Positions 139 through 60,960 of a stretch of 64,000 bases of DNA are shown here, piece by piece. The DNA is from Aristolochia californica (taxonomy: Eukaryota; Streptophyta; Magnoliopsida; Piperales; Aristolochiaceae), in contig JARWKL010000002.1 in the NCBI GenBank assembly GCA_029961685.1, positions 35,060,908 to 35,124,907 on the forward strand. The letters run 5' to 3'. How positions within the stretch are numbered: position 1 is the first letter of the stretch; each line of letters opens with the position of its first letter. The translations under genes and the position numbers were made by a program. The notes below the pieces were generated by a model, which made no database searches, was not told where the DNA came from, and was given only the letters and a program-made list of their open reading frames with translations.

Positions 139-509
139 CTACCAACGAATTTATGAAATTCGTTAGCAAAGGATATATTACATAATGGGACCTCCGCCAA
201 CAAAAATGTGAAGTTTGCTCGGTAGGGGTTGGACTCTCTATCGTTCGCAGGCACATATTCAAAATCTCAGCCAATGAAATTAAAAAAAATTCAGTTGCAA
301 GGATTCGACTTCTGTGAGTGAATTTGGGAATTTAGTGATTATTGGTTTTACATGGTGATTAACTTTACATGTTGAAGTTGCCATAGCGAGCGAGGAAGTT
401 CTTTTGACCTGCTATCGGTGGCTGAGGAATCAATAACTTTAAAATTATTTCTTTGATTGCCCATTCTGCCATCCCTTCAGGTTTTACTTAGCAATGACTA
501 GGTCGGGAA
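139..509. repeat. R repeat, copy R1 (left of Copia-1)
   Basis: About 370 bp, repeated at 4163-4530 (R2) and 26696-27046 (R3). It starts at CTACC followed by ACGAATTTATGAAATTCGTT and ends at GACTAGGTCGGGAA. In R2 and R3 it leads straight into the CYP79 promoter; here it is cut off by the LTR start at 510. The GAATTTATGAAATTC palindrome and the TTAGCAAAGG next to it resemble the CACTA-type subterminal motifs seen near 26350 and 47230. No coding sequence is seen. Confidence 0.85.
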
Positions 510-826
510 TGTAAACCGTTTTTATGAGAAACGGTTTTCTCATTACGTGGTCTCAAACTTCTGGCAGTTGCAACTCCCTCGGTAACACGAAACCATGAAC
601 CTTGATGGGAGGTTGGTTTTCGGTTAAGATATGTTTTCGGTCCCCTATCTCGTCACTCTCATTCCCCTTCAGTTCAGTGCCATCGCCGTTGAGTGCTCAG
701 AGATCGGAAGCACCGAGAAAATAGAGCGAAGGAATTTGAAGCGTATGGAAGGAGGTACAATTTATCTTCCGTTTAATTCATAATGAATTTCATATTGTTA
801 TTAGAAACTCATGTTTAAGACTTACA
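510..826 (+). repeat. 5' LTR of Copia-1
   Basis: 317 bp, opening TGTAAACC and closing CTTACA, so it carries the TG...CA ends with a TGTAA/TTACA inverted repeat. It is followed two bases later by a PBS. The left flank GGGAA is a possible target site duplication half; the other half is lost with the 3' LTR. Confidence 0.8.
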
Positions 827-828
827 GT

Positions 829-842
829 TGGTATCAGAGCAG
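829..842 (+). other. Primer binding site of Copia-1
   Basis: TGGTATCAGAGCAG directly downstream of the LTR end. This matches the usual PBS complementary to the 3' end of plant initiator tRNA-Met. Confidence 0.8.
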
Positions 843-1399
843 ACCTCTGATCCAGCGTTTTGATTTCGAGCCTCTCTATTCTGTTTCCGCGCTCACAGGC
901 GTCGGGGTTCTAGCATCGGCGACAGCCAGCGTCGAGCATGCGCCGGCGCCGGCGACCATTCCGCACGGTTGCTGGCGCCAACCGCCGACGGAGGCTGTCG
1001 CACTACACTCTCTGTGAGCTCACTGCAGCGGCTATCTCGTGACGCCTGAGAGCATCGGAGCCTTAGCACCGACGCCGGCGACCATTCCGACAGGTTTGCC
1101 GGCGTCGACGAGTTGAAAGAACGCCGACGGAACGCCGGTGCTTCTTCCTTCTGCGCGTGGCTGGAGGTTGAAGACAACCTCCAGCGCGCAGAAATATAAA
1201 ATTAAAATCATAAGGTATTTCTGTAAATACCGAACGAGTTGGCTCGGGACGAGTTTTCTGCGACTCGCCGTTCCAACTCGGCAACCGCGACTCAGGTCGG
1301 GTTGACTCGAAAAAAAAAAAAAACAAATCAAATCGACTCGGACGAGCTGAGTTGGCTCGCCATTCCTGGGCCGAGCCGACTCGGTGCATAAATTAGATT
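843..1399 (+). other. GC-rich segment of the Copia-1 leader, no gene
   Basis: A GC-rich island in an AT-rich window. GCCGGCGACCATTCCG occurs near 947 and again near 1073. From about 1220 to 1390 it is crowded with ACTCG/CGAGT pentamers on both strands and is split by an A-run at about 1310-1323. Open frames on the minus strand here have low-complexity composition and match nothing I recognise. Confidence 0.5.
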
Positions 1400-1475
1400 T
1401 GCGCCGGCGGGATTCGAACCCGCGGGCAATGGGAAAATCATGTGCGCCAAAGACCATTAGGCCACTGGCCGTCTG
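1400..1475 (-). other. tRNA-like sequence (A box and B box) in the Copia-1 leader
   Basis: Read on the minus strand it has TGGCCTAATGG, a good RNA polymerase III A box, and about 45 bases later GGTTCGAATCC, a canonical B box and T-loop. A five-pair T-stem (GCGGG/CCCGC) and a GCC/GGC D-stem are visible. The acceptor strands do not pair and the anticodon arm is poor. It is therefore a degenerate tRNA, a tRNA pseudogene or a SINE head, and probably not a working tRNA gene. Confidence 0.45.
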
Positions 1476-1565
1476 GTGTTCAGTACATAGGAACATATAA
1501 TTTTATTTCCTGTTACAGTTTTTAACGCAATTTTTGGCATATATGTGAATGCATGAAATTAAAGT

Positions 1566-2185
1566 TATGCATAATATTATAGTTTTTAATTATGCATATC
1601 TTATGAGCATATTTGGTGCATAATGATAACATGTTAGTGTAAGTTACAATTATGCAATTCATGCTATTCTCATATATTTATGAGATTTAATGTCTAGTGA
1701 TCCATATAATTTTTATTAGTTAGAGAGTAGCCACAACATCTTTAATTTAATAAAAATTATATATTATGATTAGGATCACATAAAGAATATTAGACATTAA
1801 TTGTAACTAATTTTACTTGATATAATAAATTTTATCCCATAGGAATTTTTATTATATTTGAGTTTATTAGTTAGGATAAAGTATCAAGTTATTCATAAGT
1901 TACCCACAGGGATTATGAATTCATAAATAACTTGATAGTTTTATCATAAAGAAAAATTAGAAATTAATTGTAATTAATTATACTTAATATAATAAATTTT
2001 ATCCCACAGGAATTTTTTATTATATTTGAGTATATTAATTAGGATAAAATATCAAATTATTCATAATTTACCCACAGGAATTATGAATTCATAAATAATT
2101 TGATAGTTTTATCATCAAGTTTACTCATAAAGAATCTTGAATCTACTTGAATTAAAAAACATTTAGCCCACAGGCAATGTTTTTT
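1566..2185 (+). other. Array of stem-loops in the Copia-1 leader; five loops carry CCCAYAGG
   Basis: Consecutive inverted repeats: 1566-1598, 1668-1685, a long one at 1687-1800 (perfect arms of 10, 7 and 15 bp in register), then five hairpins centred on CCCATAGG at 1836 and CCCACAGG at 1903, 2003, 2071 and 2167. Spacings are 67, 100, 68 and 96 bp, so a two-hairpin unit of about 167 bp is repeated two and a half times. Arms of the two full units differ by matched changes: AACTAAT/ATTAGTT becomes AATTAAT/ATTAATT, and CAAGTTATT/AATAACTTG becomes CAAATTATT/AATAATTTG. The last hairpin is AAAAAACATT/AATGTTTTTT. It ends about 110 bp before recognisable gag. A role in RNA packaging, dimerisation or translation is inference. 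Confidence 0.8.
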
Positions 2186-2297
2186 ATGTCAGTTGATTTG
2201 ATTTTTAAGCATGATTTACATTGGTAAAGCATGATATTTTATTCAGGCCTCAATTTTAACATCGGCATGTAATTTATACTTTTATGCAGTTATACAA

Positions 2298-4162
2298 GCT
2301 GCACATTTCTCTGATTTTCGTTGTGATATCCCTGATCTTAAGGGAGATAACTATAAGGTCTGGAAAGAGAGAATACTTCTTCATTTAGGGTGGATGGACA
2401 TAGATTATGCTATTAGGAAAGACGAACCACCCGTAATTACTGATACCAGCACTGCAGCTGCAATTACACTTTATGAACGATGGGAGCGATCTAATCGCCT
2501 CAGTGTAATGTTCATTAAGACTAAAATTGCTGCTGGTATTCGTGGTTCTGTTGAGCAGTATGAAAATGTCAAAGACTTGCTGAAAGCCATTGACGCTCAA
2601 TTTGTCACTTCAGATAAGGCATTAGCAAGCACCCTAATCATGAAGTTCTCATCCATCAAGCACACCAGTATGAGAGGTGTGCGTGAGCACATCATGCAAA
2701 TGAGGGATATTGCGGCTCAATTGAAAAATCTTGAGGTTGATATGTCAAATCTTTCGTGGTGCATTACATTCTGAATTCCCTTCCGCACCAATATGGACCC
2801 TTCAAAATCTCATACAACACACATAAAGATAAATGGTCAGTTAATGAACTTTTGACCATGTGTGTTCAAGAGGAAGGGAGACTGGTGATGGAACAAGGAG
2901 AAAATGTCATGATGGCAACACATGGAAAGGGCAAGAATCAAGCCAAACAAAAAGGGAAGGGTAAAATATCCCCCCAAGCTGGTATTAAGAAAGATTCCAA
3001 GTGTTTTTTCTGTAAAAAGAGGGAACACATGAAGAAGGAATGTGCCAAGTTTCAGAAATGGCTTGCTGACAAAGGTACACCAACCTCATTTGTTTGTTAT
3101 GAATCTAATATGATTAATGTCAATAATTACACTTGGTGGATTGATTCTGGATCAACAATCCACATCTCGAATTCCTTGCAGGGTTTGCAAAACCTAAGGA
3201 AACCAGTGGGAAGTGAGCATCAAATAATCTCAGGAGATCAGATGAGCTCACATGTGGAAGCTATAGGAACTTGCTATTTAACTTTAAGTAGTGGCTTTGT
3301 TTTAAAATTAGAAAAGACCTTTTATGTTCCAAGTTTCTCCAGAAACTTGATTTCAGTTTCAAGGCTTCAAGGCTTGTACCTTATAGATATTCTTTTAACT
3401 TTTCAGACTCATCTTTCAGTTTATATTATCAGTCTGATTGTGTTGGGAATGATACATTGTCTAATGGTCTTTATAGCATTAATTTACAAAACAATGCCAC
3501 TTACAGTTCAATGCATGTTCACACTGGTAATAAAAGAGGTGTTATTAATGAGGATTCCTCTACATTATGGTACCGGAGATTATGTCATATCTCCATAGAT
3601 AGAATTAAAAGATTAGTGAATGAAGGGGTACTTAATACTCTGGATTTTACTGATTTTAAGACTTGTGTAGACTGCATAAAGGGAAAGCAGACTAACAAGT
3701 CAAAGAAAAGTGTCAATAGGAGTTCAACCATATTAGCGATCATACATACTGATATATGTAGTCCAGACATGGACTCACATGGTCAAAAATACTTCATCTC
3801 TTTTAGAGATGATTCCTCACGATACATGTATCTCTACATGCTTTATAACAAGTATGAAGCCTTAGATGCCTTTAAGATCTTTAAGGCTGAAGCAGAGACA
3901 CAATGCGGTAAGCAAATTAAGATCGTGAGATCAGATAGAGGTGGAGAATACTATGGTAGATACACTGAGAATGGACAAGCACCTAGGCCATTTGCAAAGT
4001 TTCTTCAGGAACATGGGATTGTTGCCCAATATACCATGCTTGGTTCTCCGGACCAAAATGGTGTAGCAGAAAGAAGAAACCGAACATTATTAGGCATGAT
4101 GCGGAGTATGCTTAGCAACTCCAATCTTCCTAGATCCTTGTGGCCTGAAGCACTTAAGACGG
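2298..4162 (+). pseudogene. Copia-1 gag-pol (gag, protease, integrase), frameshifted and truncated
   Basis: The Copia polyprotein normally supplies the capsid, protease, integrase and RT for retrotransposition. Gag-like coding runs from about 2298 (a conserved LKGDNYKVWKERI stretch lies before the first ATG at 2394). The frame breaks near 2755 and resumes. A CCHC zinc knuckle CX2CX4HX4C lies at 3002-3043 and the protease motif DSGST near 3143. A second frame break sits near 3370. Integrase follows: an H/C-rich pre-integrase part, then catalytic Asp near 3751, Asp near 3934 (RSDRGGEY) and Glu near 4069 (NGVAERRNRT). Coding stops at 4162 in mid-domain, so RT and RNase H are lost. It cannot make a full polyprotein. 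Confidence 0.85.
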
Positions 4163-4530
4163 CTACCAACGAATTTATGAAATTCGTTAGCAAAGGATAT
4201 ATTACATAATGGGACCTCCGCCAACAAAAATGTGAAGTTTGCTCGGTAGGGGTTGGACTCTCTATCGTTCGCAGGCACATATTCAAAATCTCAGCCAATG
4301 AAATTAAAAAGAATTCAGTTGGGATTCGACTTTTGTGAGTGAATTTGGGAATTCAGTGATTATTGGTTTTACATGGTGATTAACTTTACATGTTGAAGTT
4401 GCCATAGCGAGCGAGGAAGTTCTTTTGACCTGCTATCGGTGGCTGAGGAATCAATAACTTTAAAATTATTTCTTTGATTGCCCATTCCGCCATCCCTTCA
4501 GGTTTTACCTAGCAATGACTAGGTCGGGAA
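4163..4530. repeat. R repeat, copy R2 (upstream of CYP79 copy 1)
   Basis: Nearly identical to R1 and R3. Unlike R1 it continues into the P450 promoter (TCCATAAACTAAG), exactly as R3 does. It lacks a 5-bp GCAAG present in R1 and R3. R3 alone lacks about 20 bp near its middle. Confidence 0.85.
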
Positions 4531-4659
4531 TCCATAAACTAAGTATAAAGGTCACATTCCGCACCTTCCCCACACGCTCCCGCACTCCACATCTTTTACC
4601 CAGGAGCCGCCTCTCGCCCATCGGCACCGTGAATCGGCCAAGAGTCCGCAGTGTCACCT

Positions 4660-26564: not shown

Positions 26565-26695
26565 TTTTGGTGTAATCTATAAAAAAAATTGGGATTTTAT
26601 TTTATCTTATTTTATATATATTTAAATCTTATATTAATTAATTTTTAATAAATTTATTCATTAAATACGAAAAAATATGTAGAGAGGTTGCATCT

Positions 26696-27046
26696 CTACC
26701 AACGAATTTATGAAATTCGTTAGCAAAGGATATATTACATAATGGGACCTCCGCCAACAAAAATGTGAAGTTTGCTCGGTAGGGGTTGGACTCTCTATCG
26801 TTCGCAGGCAATGAAATTAAAAAAAATTCAGTTGCAAGGATTCGACTTCTGTGAGTGAATTTGGGAATTCAGTGATTATTGGTTTTACATGGTGATTAAC
26901 TTTACATGTTGAAGTTGCCATAGCGAGCGAGGAAGTTCTTTGAACCTGCTATCGGTGGCTGAGGAATCAATAACTTTAAAATTATTTCTTTGATTGCCCA
27001 TTCCGCCATCCCTTCAGGTTTTACTTAGCAATGACTAGGTCGGGAA
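26696..27046. repeat. R repeat, copy R3 (upstream of CYP79 copy 2)
   Basis: 351 bp, single copy at this locus and continuous with the P450 promoter. It represents the unoccupied arrangement with no Copia insertion. Confidence 0.85.
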
Positions 27047-27253
27047 TCCATAAACTAAGCATAAAGGTCACATTCCGCACCTTCCCCACACGCTCTCGCA
27101 CTCCACATCTTTTACCCAGGAGCCGCCTCTCGCCCATCGGCACCGTGAATCGGCCAAGAGTCCGCAGTGTCACCTGGTCACGTCACGTCAAGCACCTTGA
27201 TTTCCTAGCTGCTTCCCCCCGTCTCTCGAGAAAACCATCACAATGGTTTCAAA

Positions 27254-59990: not shown

Positions 59991-60960
59991 ATGGCCAATT
60001 AGGGTGAACCATTACAGTTACCTGTAGCAGGTGACTGTAGAGCCCTGAGGGATTATTCTATCCCATCCAACTTCACATCACCTTCTTGCATTATATTGCC
60101 ACCCACTACTGCAGCCAGTTATGAGTTGAAACCGGGTGTGATCCAACTCCTCCCTACATTCTATGGGTCGGAGAAGGAGGGCCCTTATTACCACATCAAG
60201 GAATTCTTAGATATCAGTGCGACTTTCAAATTCCAGAATTTCTCAGATGACTCTATCCGGTTAAGAATTTTTCAATTTTCACTTAAGGATAAGGCCAAGT
60301 CTTGGCTCAATTCCTTAAAGGTGGGTAGCATTACTTCATGGGACACATTAGTCACGAAATTTTTGTCCAAGTACTTTTCCATTCAGAGAACTACAGCCCT
60401 CAGGAGAGAAAACTCCAACTTTATGCAGCAGAAGGGTGAACACTTTTATGAGGCTTAGGAGAAATGGAAGGATTTGTTCCGTAGGTGTCCGCATCATGGG
60501 TTTGAGAAATGTCATTTAGTGCAATACTTTTCTCAAGGACTTACACCCCAAGTTAGATCCATGGTAGTTGCAACGAGTGGTGGGAGTTTGATGGGTAAGA
60601 GTGCTAGTCAGGCGTGGGACTTCTTTGAAACGTTGAGTGATCAATCTCAGCAATGGGGTTCGTCATTTAATGTTGATAGGAGATCCCATGAAGCCAAAAG
60701 AGGGGGTCTCTAGGTTAGTGAAACACCCATGCTCATGGCCAAGATTGAGGGGTTGACTAGAAAAATTTATGCCCTTATGGTGTCCAGGAGTTCACCTGCT
60801 CCTAACCCATCTACTATTTGTGCTATATGCTCTAGTTCATCTCATCCCACACAAATGTGTCCATCTGGTTCATCCTACCCGAAGCTCATTGAGGACTTGA
60901 ATGCAGTCCAGAATTTTCATAGACCAAACCGGAACGATCCTTTTTTTGGAAACATATAAT
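59991..60960 (+). pseudogene. Athila-like gag
   Basis: ATG at 59991, then an in-frame TAG at 60000 where CAG is expected. Capsid: FYGSEKEGPYYHIKEFLDI, IRLRIFQFSLKDKAKSWLNSL, WDTLVTKFLSKYF, then HFYEA-stop-EKWKDLFRRCPHHG with TAG where TGG (Trp) is expected (60457). CxxC-type CAICSSSSHPTQMC near 60820 is the zinc knuckle. Further stops near 60711 and 60957. Confidence 0.8.

Follow-up and report, generated by a model that had tools for sequence, protein, structure and literature searches.

A repeated-loop hairpin array, a candidate leader intron and a hypermutable loop base in a Copia element of Aristolochia californica

How plant LTR elements separate the RNA that is translated from the RNA that is packaged is an open question. 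The window analysed here, a stretch of 64,000 nucleotides from A. californica, holds a Copia element in which a row of hairpins presenting one loop motif stands between the primer binding site (PBS) and gag, and this raises the question of what such an array may be doing in the leader. Judging from the sequence, we consider it evenly balanced whether the array is a cis-acting handle by which a Ty1/copia element would mark its unspliced genomic RNA, with the Gag AUG being spliced in and base 7 of the loop being misread.

The Copia fragment and its row of hairpins

The element is present in the window as a 5′ fragment on the forward strand, with an LTR at 510–826, a PBS at 829–840 and gag and integrase sequences up to 4162. 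The 3′ edge of the 5′ LTR (TG...CA) was placed from the PBS and its 5′ edge from the end of the similarity to a host promoter, and no 3′ LTR was found within the window. Two copies of this host promoter piece flank the fragment (139–510 and 4163–4531), one further copy lies near 26565–27116, and a cytochrome P450 gene follows after 4827. The PBS, TGGTATCAGAGC, lies inside the candidate intron discussed below and was assigned to the initiator-tRNA-Met type by a 12-nt match to the 3′ end of that tRNA. It falls within a predicted hairpin (829–851, ATCAGAG...CTCTGAT), the 3′ arm of which presumably repeats the acceptor strand of the initiator tRNA.

The Gag reading frame, which would start in exon 2 (2290–2771), was recognized by profile and similarity (Retrotran_gag_2). 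The copia-type Gag domain PF14223 scored 30 bits, above its cut-off of 27, the GAG-pre-integrase domain PF13976 reached its cut-off, and rve scored 30.3 bits, under the cut-off of 32.6; as the element is broken at 4162, the window copy has no reverse transcriptase to place in the domain order. The N terminus of Gag (2292–2771) shares 69–84% identity with relatives in legumes, Pistacia, Curcuma and the record PITA_11797, values that are rather even across distant plants, so that horizontal transfer is possibly worth testing. No locus encoding a relative was found in the viral contig or genome contig collections. A tRNA scan of the 64-kb window gave no tRNA; with relaxed ARAGORN settings a weak tRNA-Thr-like remnant was seen in the leader (about 1399–1487, minus strand), and the plant snoRNA snoR71 (Rfam RF00097) lies at 60396–60502 on the minus strand.

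The original prediction had placed a row of at least eight hairpins upstream of gag. The array itself is real, whereas the hairpins further upstream lack the octamer and the segment of the first repeat folds within chance. The octamer CCCAYAGG occurs at 1836 (as CCCATAGG), 1903, 2003, 2071 and 2167 (as CCCACAGG), which confirms five octamer loops with spacings of 67/100/68/96 bp. These loops belong to hairpins 1a (1804–1873, octamer 1836–1843), 1b (1875–1945, octamer 1903–1910), 2a (1971–2041, octamer 2003–2010), 2b (2043–2113, octamer 2071–2078) and 3 (2148–2191, octamer 2167–2174), all on the forward strand; base 5 of the octamer in 1a is C in 68 of the 78 genomic copies compared. A two-hairpin unit of about 167 bp is indeed repeated, its two full versions differing by 14 substitutions and one indel. 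The paired stem changes quoted in the prediction are present in the unit alignment, and two T>A changes between the units turn two T.T mismatches into pairs, the pairing being judged by eye in both cases.

The fold of 1566–2185 reached -158.4 kcal/mol, compared with a mean of -100.4 in 20 shuffles (z -8.1). Taken separately, the segments 1687–1805 (z -6.6), 1806–1952 (z -4.3), 1953–2120 (z -5.6) and 2121–2200 (z -4.4) were each matched by none of 100 shuffles. The fold of 1501–1686, which holds the first inverted repeats, was not beyond chance (z -1.3, 9 of 100 shuffles equally good), and the inverted repeat without octamer at 1562–1602 lies in this segment. A long upstream hairpin, likewise without octamer, occupies 1687–1796 and has a perfect 15-bp core (1704–1718/1748–1762). 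The G+C-rich 5′ half of the leader (841–1500) is highly structured (z -9.7), and it is a fast-evolving stretch that aligns poorly among copies.

No site fully complementary to the octamer, G-U pairs allowed, was found within 501–4162, and the four other CCCAYAGG sites of the window (12071, 35689, 59580 and 61002) were set aside, being single and having local folds unlike the array hairpins. The octamer CCCACAGG (1836–2174) equals bases 39–46 of the plant initiator tRNA-Met, the element's own primer, in the same sense, a match that is reached by 0.25% of letter permutations of the octamer. No mechanism was drawn from this likeness, since the base that is hypermutable in the loops is not known to be a modified position in that tRNA. 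In keeping with the claim that no counterpart had been described, nothing like the array or the intron was found in open-licence papers, and no Rfam family reached its gathering cut-off over the array, with three sub-threshold matches in 827–2300 and none in 1804–2191. Two literature matches to the octamer (PMC4163409 and PMC2647555) were discarded, being PCR primers in the passages concerned, one in a Cassandra element and one in a GUS construct.

A candidate intron between LTR and gag

The leader between the LTR and gag is probably an intron, as suggested by the signals at its two ends. The candidate (755–2289, 1,535 nt), which would include the PBS and the whole hairpin array, was deduced from a donor, an acceptor and a first exon. 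Exon 1 would end inside the LTR, 84 nt before the PBS, in a stretch that carries the candidate Gag start codon (ATG GAA GGA G, 745–754), and the exon 1/donor junction reads ATGGAAGGAG directly followed by GT at 745–756. The candidate donor of the window copy, GTACAA (755–760), is less common among copies than GTATGA, the commonest form with 28 of 55 scorable copies, and the candidate acceptor TTTTATGCAG (2280–2289) keeps its AG in 69 of 78. The single ATGNNNGGNGGT of the whole 64 kb is ATGGAAGGAGGT at 745, within the LTR; because 1.27 would be expected by chance in 64 kb, its location and not its presence counts as evidence. Copies were scorable (55 of 78) when exon 1 and the PBS were each recognisable with at most two mismatches, and among them the donor GT is kept in 52 and the ATG in 48, counts that lean towards the motif because the search used the motif itself. 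In 30 of these copies 83 or 84 nt separate the exon 1 motif from the PBS.

Without splicing, an in-frame AUG ahead of Gag is present in 1 of the 78 copies, and for this reason cap-independent translation of gag, one of the roles suggested earlier for the hairpins, is unlikely. The start predicted by the splice, M-E-G-V, is like the M-A-G-V of relatives. In a hand-picked part of the 120 matches listed out of 1,044, plant relatives start MAGV- or MAGAS-QPANFSD, and other frames show FAVIQ, FSASQ, FAVLLP or FCAVLP at the same point; set side by side, some of these records have MAGVIQ, MAGASQ and MAGVVLP where the read-through relatives show FAVIQ, FSASQ and FAVLLP. Frames of the FAVIQ/FSASQ type are what read-through of an NCAG acceptor would produce. 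Against splicing counts the gene model P0007, labelled A. californica, which has leader-like sequence before Gag and not the predicted start.

If this model holds, a splice between the LTR donor and TTTTATGCAG at 2289 would take out the entire leader, PBS included, and would join the AUG to Gag, giving the Gag mRNA, and the unspliced RNA would retain the PBS together with a row of hairpins presenting one loop several times. Hairpins and PBS would then be confined to the unspliced genomic RNA, which would suit a handle for packaging or export. Most likely the repeated loop would be bound by the Gag nucleocapsid for packaging, although repeated identical loops could equally go with export or RNA stability. 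Foamy virus and HTLV-1 have a splice donor in the R region, upstream of the PBS, and make spliced RNA without the PBS; they differ in being animal retroviruses that make Gag from unspliced RNA. In Ogre, the intron follows gag. Several hairpins with one identical loop in a packaged RNA are known from the GACG loops of gammaretroviruses and the SL5 loops of alphacoronaviruses, which differ from the array in loop sequence and hosts, the packaging role of the array being putative.

The main rival is nuclear export. The MPMV CTE is a repeated-loop element that serves unspliced RNA, and by analogy with it and with the IAP and MusD transport elements the array might be a nuclear export or retention element for unspliced RNA, a reading that we regard as rather unlikely. 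The position of the array between the candidate donor and acceptor and its repeated identical loops would fit such an element. However, the MPMV CTE, the IAP RTE and the MusD MTE act by NXF1-based export in animals and are likened to the array by description. The latter two are presented in sections of a 2025 review as structured transport elements serving unspliced RNA (PMC12786077), where it is also stated that plants use TREX and not the TAP/NXF1 receptor that the mouse IAP and MusD elements engage (PMC12786077).

Returning to a spliced Gag mRNA and a packaged unspliced RNA, the nearest described case is that of BARE, a barley Ty1/copia element with distinct RNA pools for Gag translation and for packaging, in which splicing is involved (PMC3735527). 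The likeness lies in a plant copia element having separate translated and packaged RNAs, the pools of the window element being predicted from sequence. As described in part of that paper, BARE has a 104-nt intron just after gag, and its packaged pool comes from another promoter (PMC3735527), whereas the candidate intron in the window would lie upstream of gag, hold the PBS and supply the Gag AUG by splicing. The 2025 review names EVD/ATCOPIA93 shGAG and Ogre as exceptions among plant LTR elements in having functional introns (PMC12786077). In EVD it is the protease region downstream of gag that the intron takes out (PMC12786077). A spliced short Gag of the BARE/EVD type has its intron after or within the 3′ part of gag, and the window candidate ends at 2289, upstream of gag. 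The passages on EVD and Ogre in that review describe no intron with both a PBS and a hairpin array (PMC12786077). With a Gag AUG contributed by the LTR through splicing, and with PBS and array intronic, the element would separate its RNAs by splicing alone, and, should the intron model be true, the array would provide a compact target for packaging or export tests.

Persistence of the array and constraint on its structure

At least 40 copies of the 707-base query are found at 96–100% identity in the same genome, the window copy included (40 of 269 candidates scored), and the 150 Gag loci scored out of 1,203 candidates have 73–100% identity. Altogether 98 loci were gathered and identical ones dropped, leaving 78 copies for comparison; these are a sample, made up of 27 near copies, 11 further Gag loci and 40 more diverged loci that were hand-picked, partial matches being skipped. 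Even copies with a Gag identity as low as 73% keep the array. Among the 40 diverged loci, 39 have one or more octamer variants in the array stretch, L070 having none, and these diverged copies support the original proposal that the Copia leader is structured and carries a repeated loop motif. In the local fold, the octamer occupies the tip in 181 of 183 loops from 37 near copies and in 162 of 188 loops from 41 diverged copies, compared with 52 of 183 and 49 of 188, respectively, for control sites 33 nt off the octamer. Eight of the 78 copies are gapped at the second octamer. The diverged loci L061, L062, L064, L065, L067, L073, L074 and L080 are gapped at octamers two and three, as if array units had recombined.

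Paired stem changes around an unchanged loop had been taken to suggest selection on structure. Support for such selection is moderate and mixed: the substitutions between units keep the fold and the octamer outside bases 5 and 7 looks constrained, whereas the covariation result is null and the stems show no extra constraint. When the unit substitutions were placed at random (1000 trials each), an equally stable fold resulted in 0.3% of placements starting from unit 1 and in 5.1% starting from unit 2. Covariation was examined with our own test, modelled on R-scape and using a tree-based null with 40 null alignments over 509 columns and 78 copies; none of 178 pairs was significant and none had E < 10, the power of the test being low because the copies are close.

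With the fold of L001, and averaged over ten reconstructions, pairing survived 101 of 130 stem changes on internal branches and 91 of 314 on terminal ones, a comparison that is biased because the fold was taken from one copy. With the reference path excluded, the branch pairing test gave p < 0.05 for three of nine fold references, namely L059 (23/41, 5e-4), L066 (23/44, 5e-3) and L076 (26/60, 0.03). The other six were not significant: L001 (16/42, 0.28), L087 (0.052), L022, L079, L084 and L075. Six slid-partner controls on L001 had p values from 0.075 to 0.91 for the main counts, and in the parent-paired subset two of the six fell under 0.05 (shift -3, 0.046; shift +1, 0.007).

When changes on internal branches were divided by those on terminal branches, stems gave 0.42, unpaired array positions 0.35, the octamer minus bases 5 and 7 0.21, and gag 0.14–0.20. 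Apart from bases 5 and 7 the octamer looks constrained while the element was active, near the level of gag, and no added constraint is seen in the stems relative to unpaired array positions. Compared with its flanks, the octamer is the more variable (mean minor frequency 0.053 versus 0.008 in 28 near loci, two of them identical), mainly because of base 7. Taken literally, this variability and the null covariation both speak against the original prediction, yet they carry limited weight because most copies are close and have been decaying after insertion.

It is also conceivable that the array has no RNA-level function and arose when an A+T-rich inverted repeat was duplicated in tandem, folding by accident and being inherited by descent. 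The null covariation, the stems evolving like unpaired array positions and the six of nine references without a significant branch test would all agree with this. On the other hand, accidental folding accounts poorly for unit-to-unit substitutions that preserve the fold, for an octamer still at the tip in most diverged loops, for octamer bases besides 5 and 7 that are constrained about like gag, and for pairing kept on lineages away from the three diverged fold references, and we think this explanation unlikely.

A hypermutable base in the loop

The loop was originally described as invariant. Across copies it is not, and the changes are found chiefly at base 7, a hypermutable G in all five loops (1842, 1909, 2009, 2077 and 2173). 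In the 78 copies, the counts by loop are 44/55/35/46/42 for G, 17/8/17/11/14 for A, 12/6/15/20/20 for T and 3/0/1/0/2 for C. On a tree of these copies built without the octamers, base 7 required 30, 27, 26, 24 and 14 parsimony steps, ranking first to fourth and seventh of 590 columns (1700–2291), with a mean of 2.3 steps over the 590 columns and 4.6 at other G columns. When viewed by allele frequency, no octamer base is among the 45 most variable sites of 813–4097 in 34 near copies; many of those sites lie in 841–1500 or are shared two-allele differences.

A large part of the change at base 7 arises around retrotransposition, since a large share of it is independent of copy age. Among the 29 youngest copies, base 7 has 7, 7, 4, 3 and 3 terminal changes, and the 752 other columns have a mean of 0.17 and a maximum of 4 (at 1970, above base 7 in two loops). 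The 31 columns of similar polymorphism have at most two such changes each, and inherited polymorphism shuffled by recombination is ruled out by these control columns as the main cause of the hotspot. Regression on age over 75 copies gave 0.13 changes per loop per copy at age zero plus an age-dependent part, with a likelihood ratio for the age-zero intercept of 52 at base 7, 1.6 at base 5 and 0.15 at base 8. It supersedes a first regression (intercept 0.215, ratio 77.7) that included L061, L097 and L070, which have very many changes and were taken as misaligned. With the same three excluded, copy pairs 0.5–2% apart, which are not independent of each other, differ at base 7 in 31–44% and at other G in 2–4%; two pairs less than 0.5% apart, probably segmental duplicates, differ at 0/3 and 1/5 loops (12.5%). 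That a single loop base should be a hotspot in five hairpins, and in part independently of age, was unexpected; through it, genome sequence would give a readout of an RNA modification or of an error that reverse transcription makes at a specific site.

Decay of the DNA after insertion was weighed first among the causes, as the CAG of the octamer is a CHG methylation site at which methylated C would deaminate. Relative to CHG sites elsewhere, there is 1.3 to 2.1 times as much C5>T and 1.9 to 3 times as much G7>A, and base 7 does have an age-dependent part, so CHG methylation can account for C5>T and part of G7>A. It is unable to explain G7>T, however, which stands at 0.084 compared with 0.006–0.014 at other CHG guanines. 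For base 5, which belongs to that CAG too, no significant age-independent part was obtained, and the two closest copy pairs differ at hardly any loop, so that decay as the source of the hotspot appears improbable to us.

Perhaps the fault lies with the reverse transcriptase alone, either through pausing at the tip with misinsertion or through template jumps between equal loops with the addition of untemplated bases; this is a possibility that we entertain with reserve. The age-independent part, a tip geometry common to all five loops and the existence of arrays without inner hairpins, as in the copies gapped at the second octamer, would be expected from such a fault. Yet base 8, which is likewise in the tip, is not hot, and base 7 is hot in every loop despite flanking pairs that differ from one loop to the next, which would argue against a purely structural pause.

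Our leading guess is a modified base that is misread by the reverse transcriptase. The G at base 7 of the loop would frequently be misread around the time of reverse transcription, and the simplest cause would be a modification or some other alteration of this G in the genomic RNA. That this G is enzymatically modified, for example N1- or N2,N2-methylated, at each of several identical loops and misread in each cycle is advanced here tentatively. In tRNA sequencing, m1G and m2,2G cause misincorporation by reverse transcriptases, according to sections of one report (PMC12140624); the likeness is that of a modified G misread at a fixed place, the difference being that there tRNA and laboratory enzymes are concerned and here the misreading is deduced from genomic copies. 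If true, the genomic copies would be a fossil record of RNA modification on a retrotransposon leader, in an intron that holds the PBS.

Guanines between the hairpins, at 1951, 1960 and 1970, have a weaker excess of G>T/A changes, T-rich and akin to that of base 7, and the cause may therefore not be unique to the octamer.
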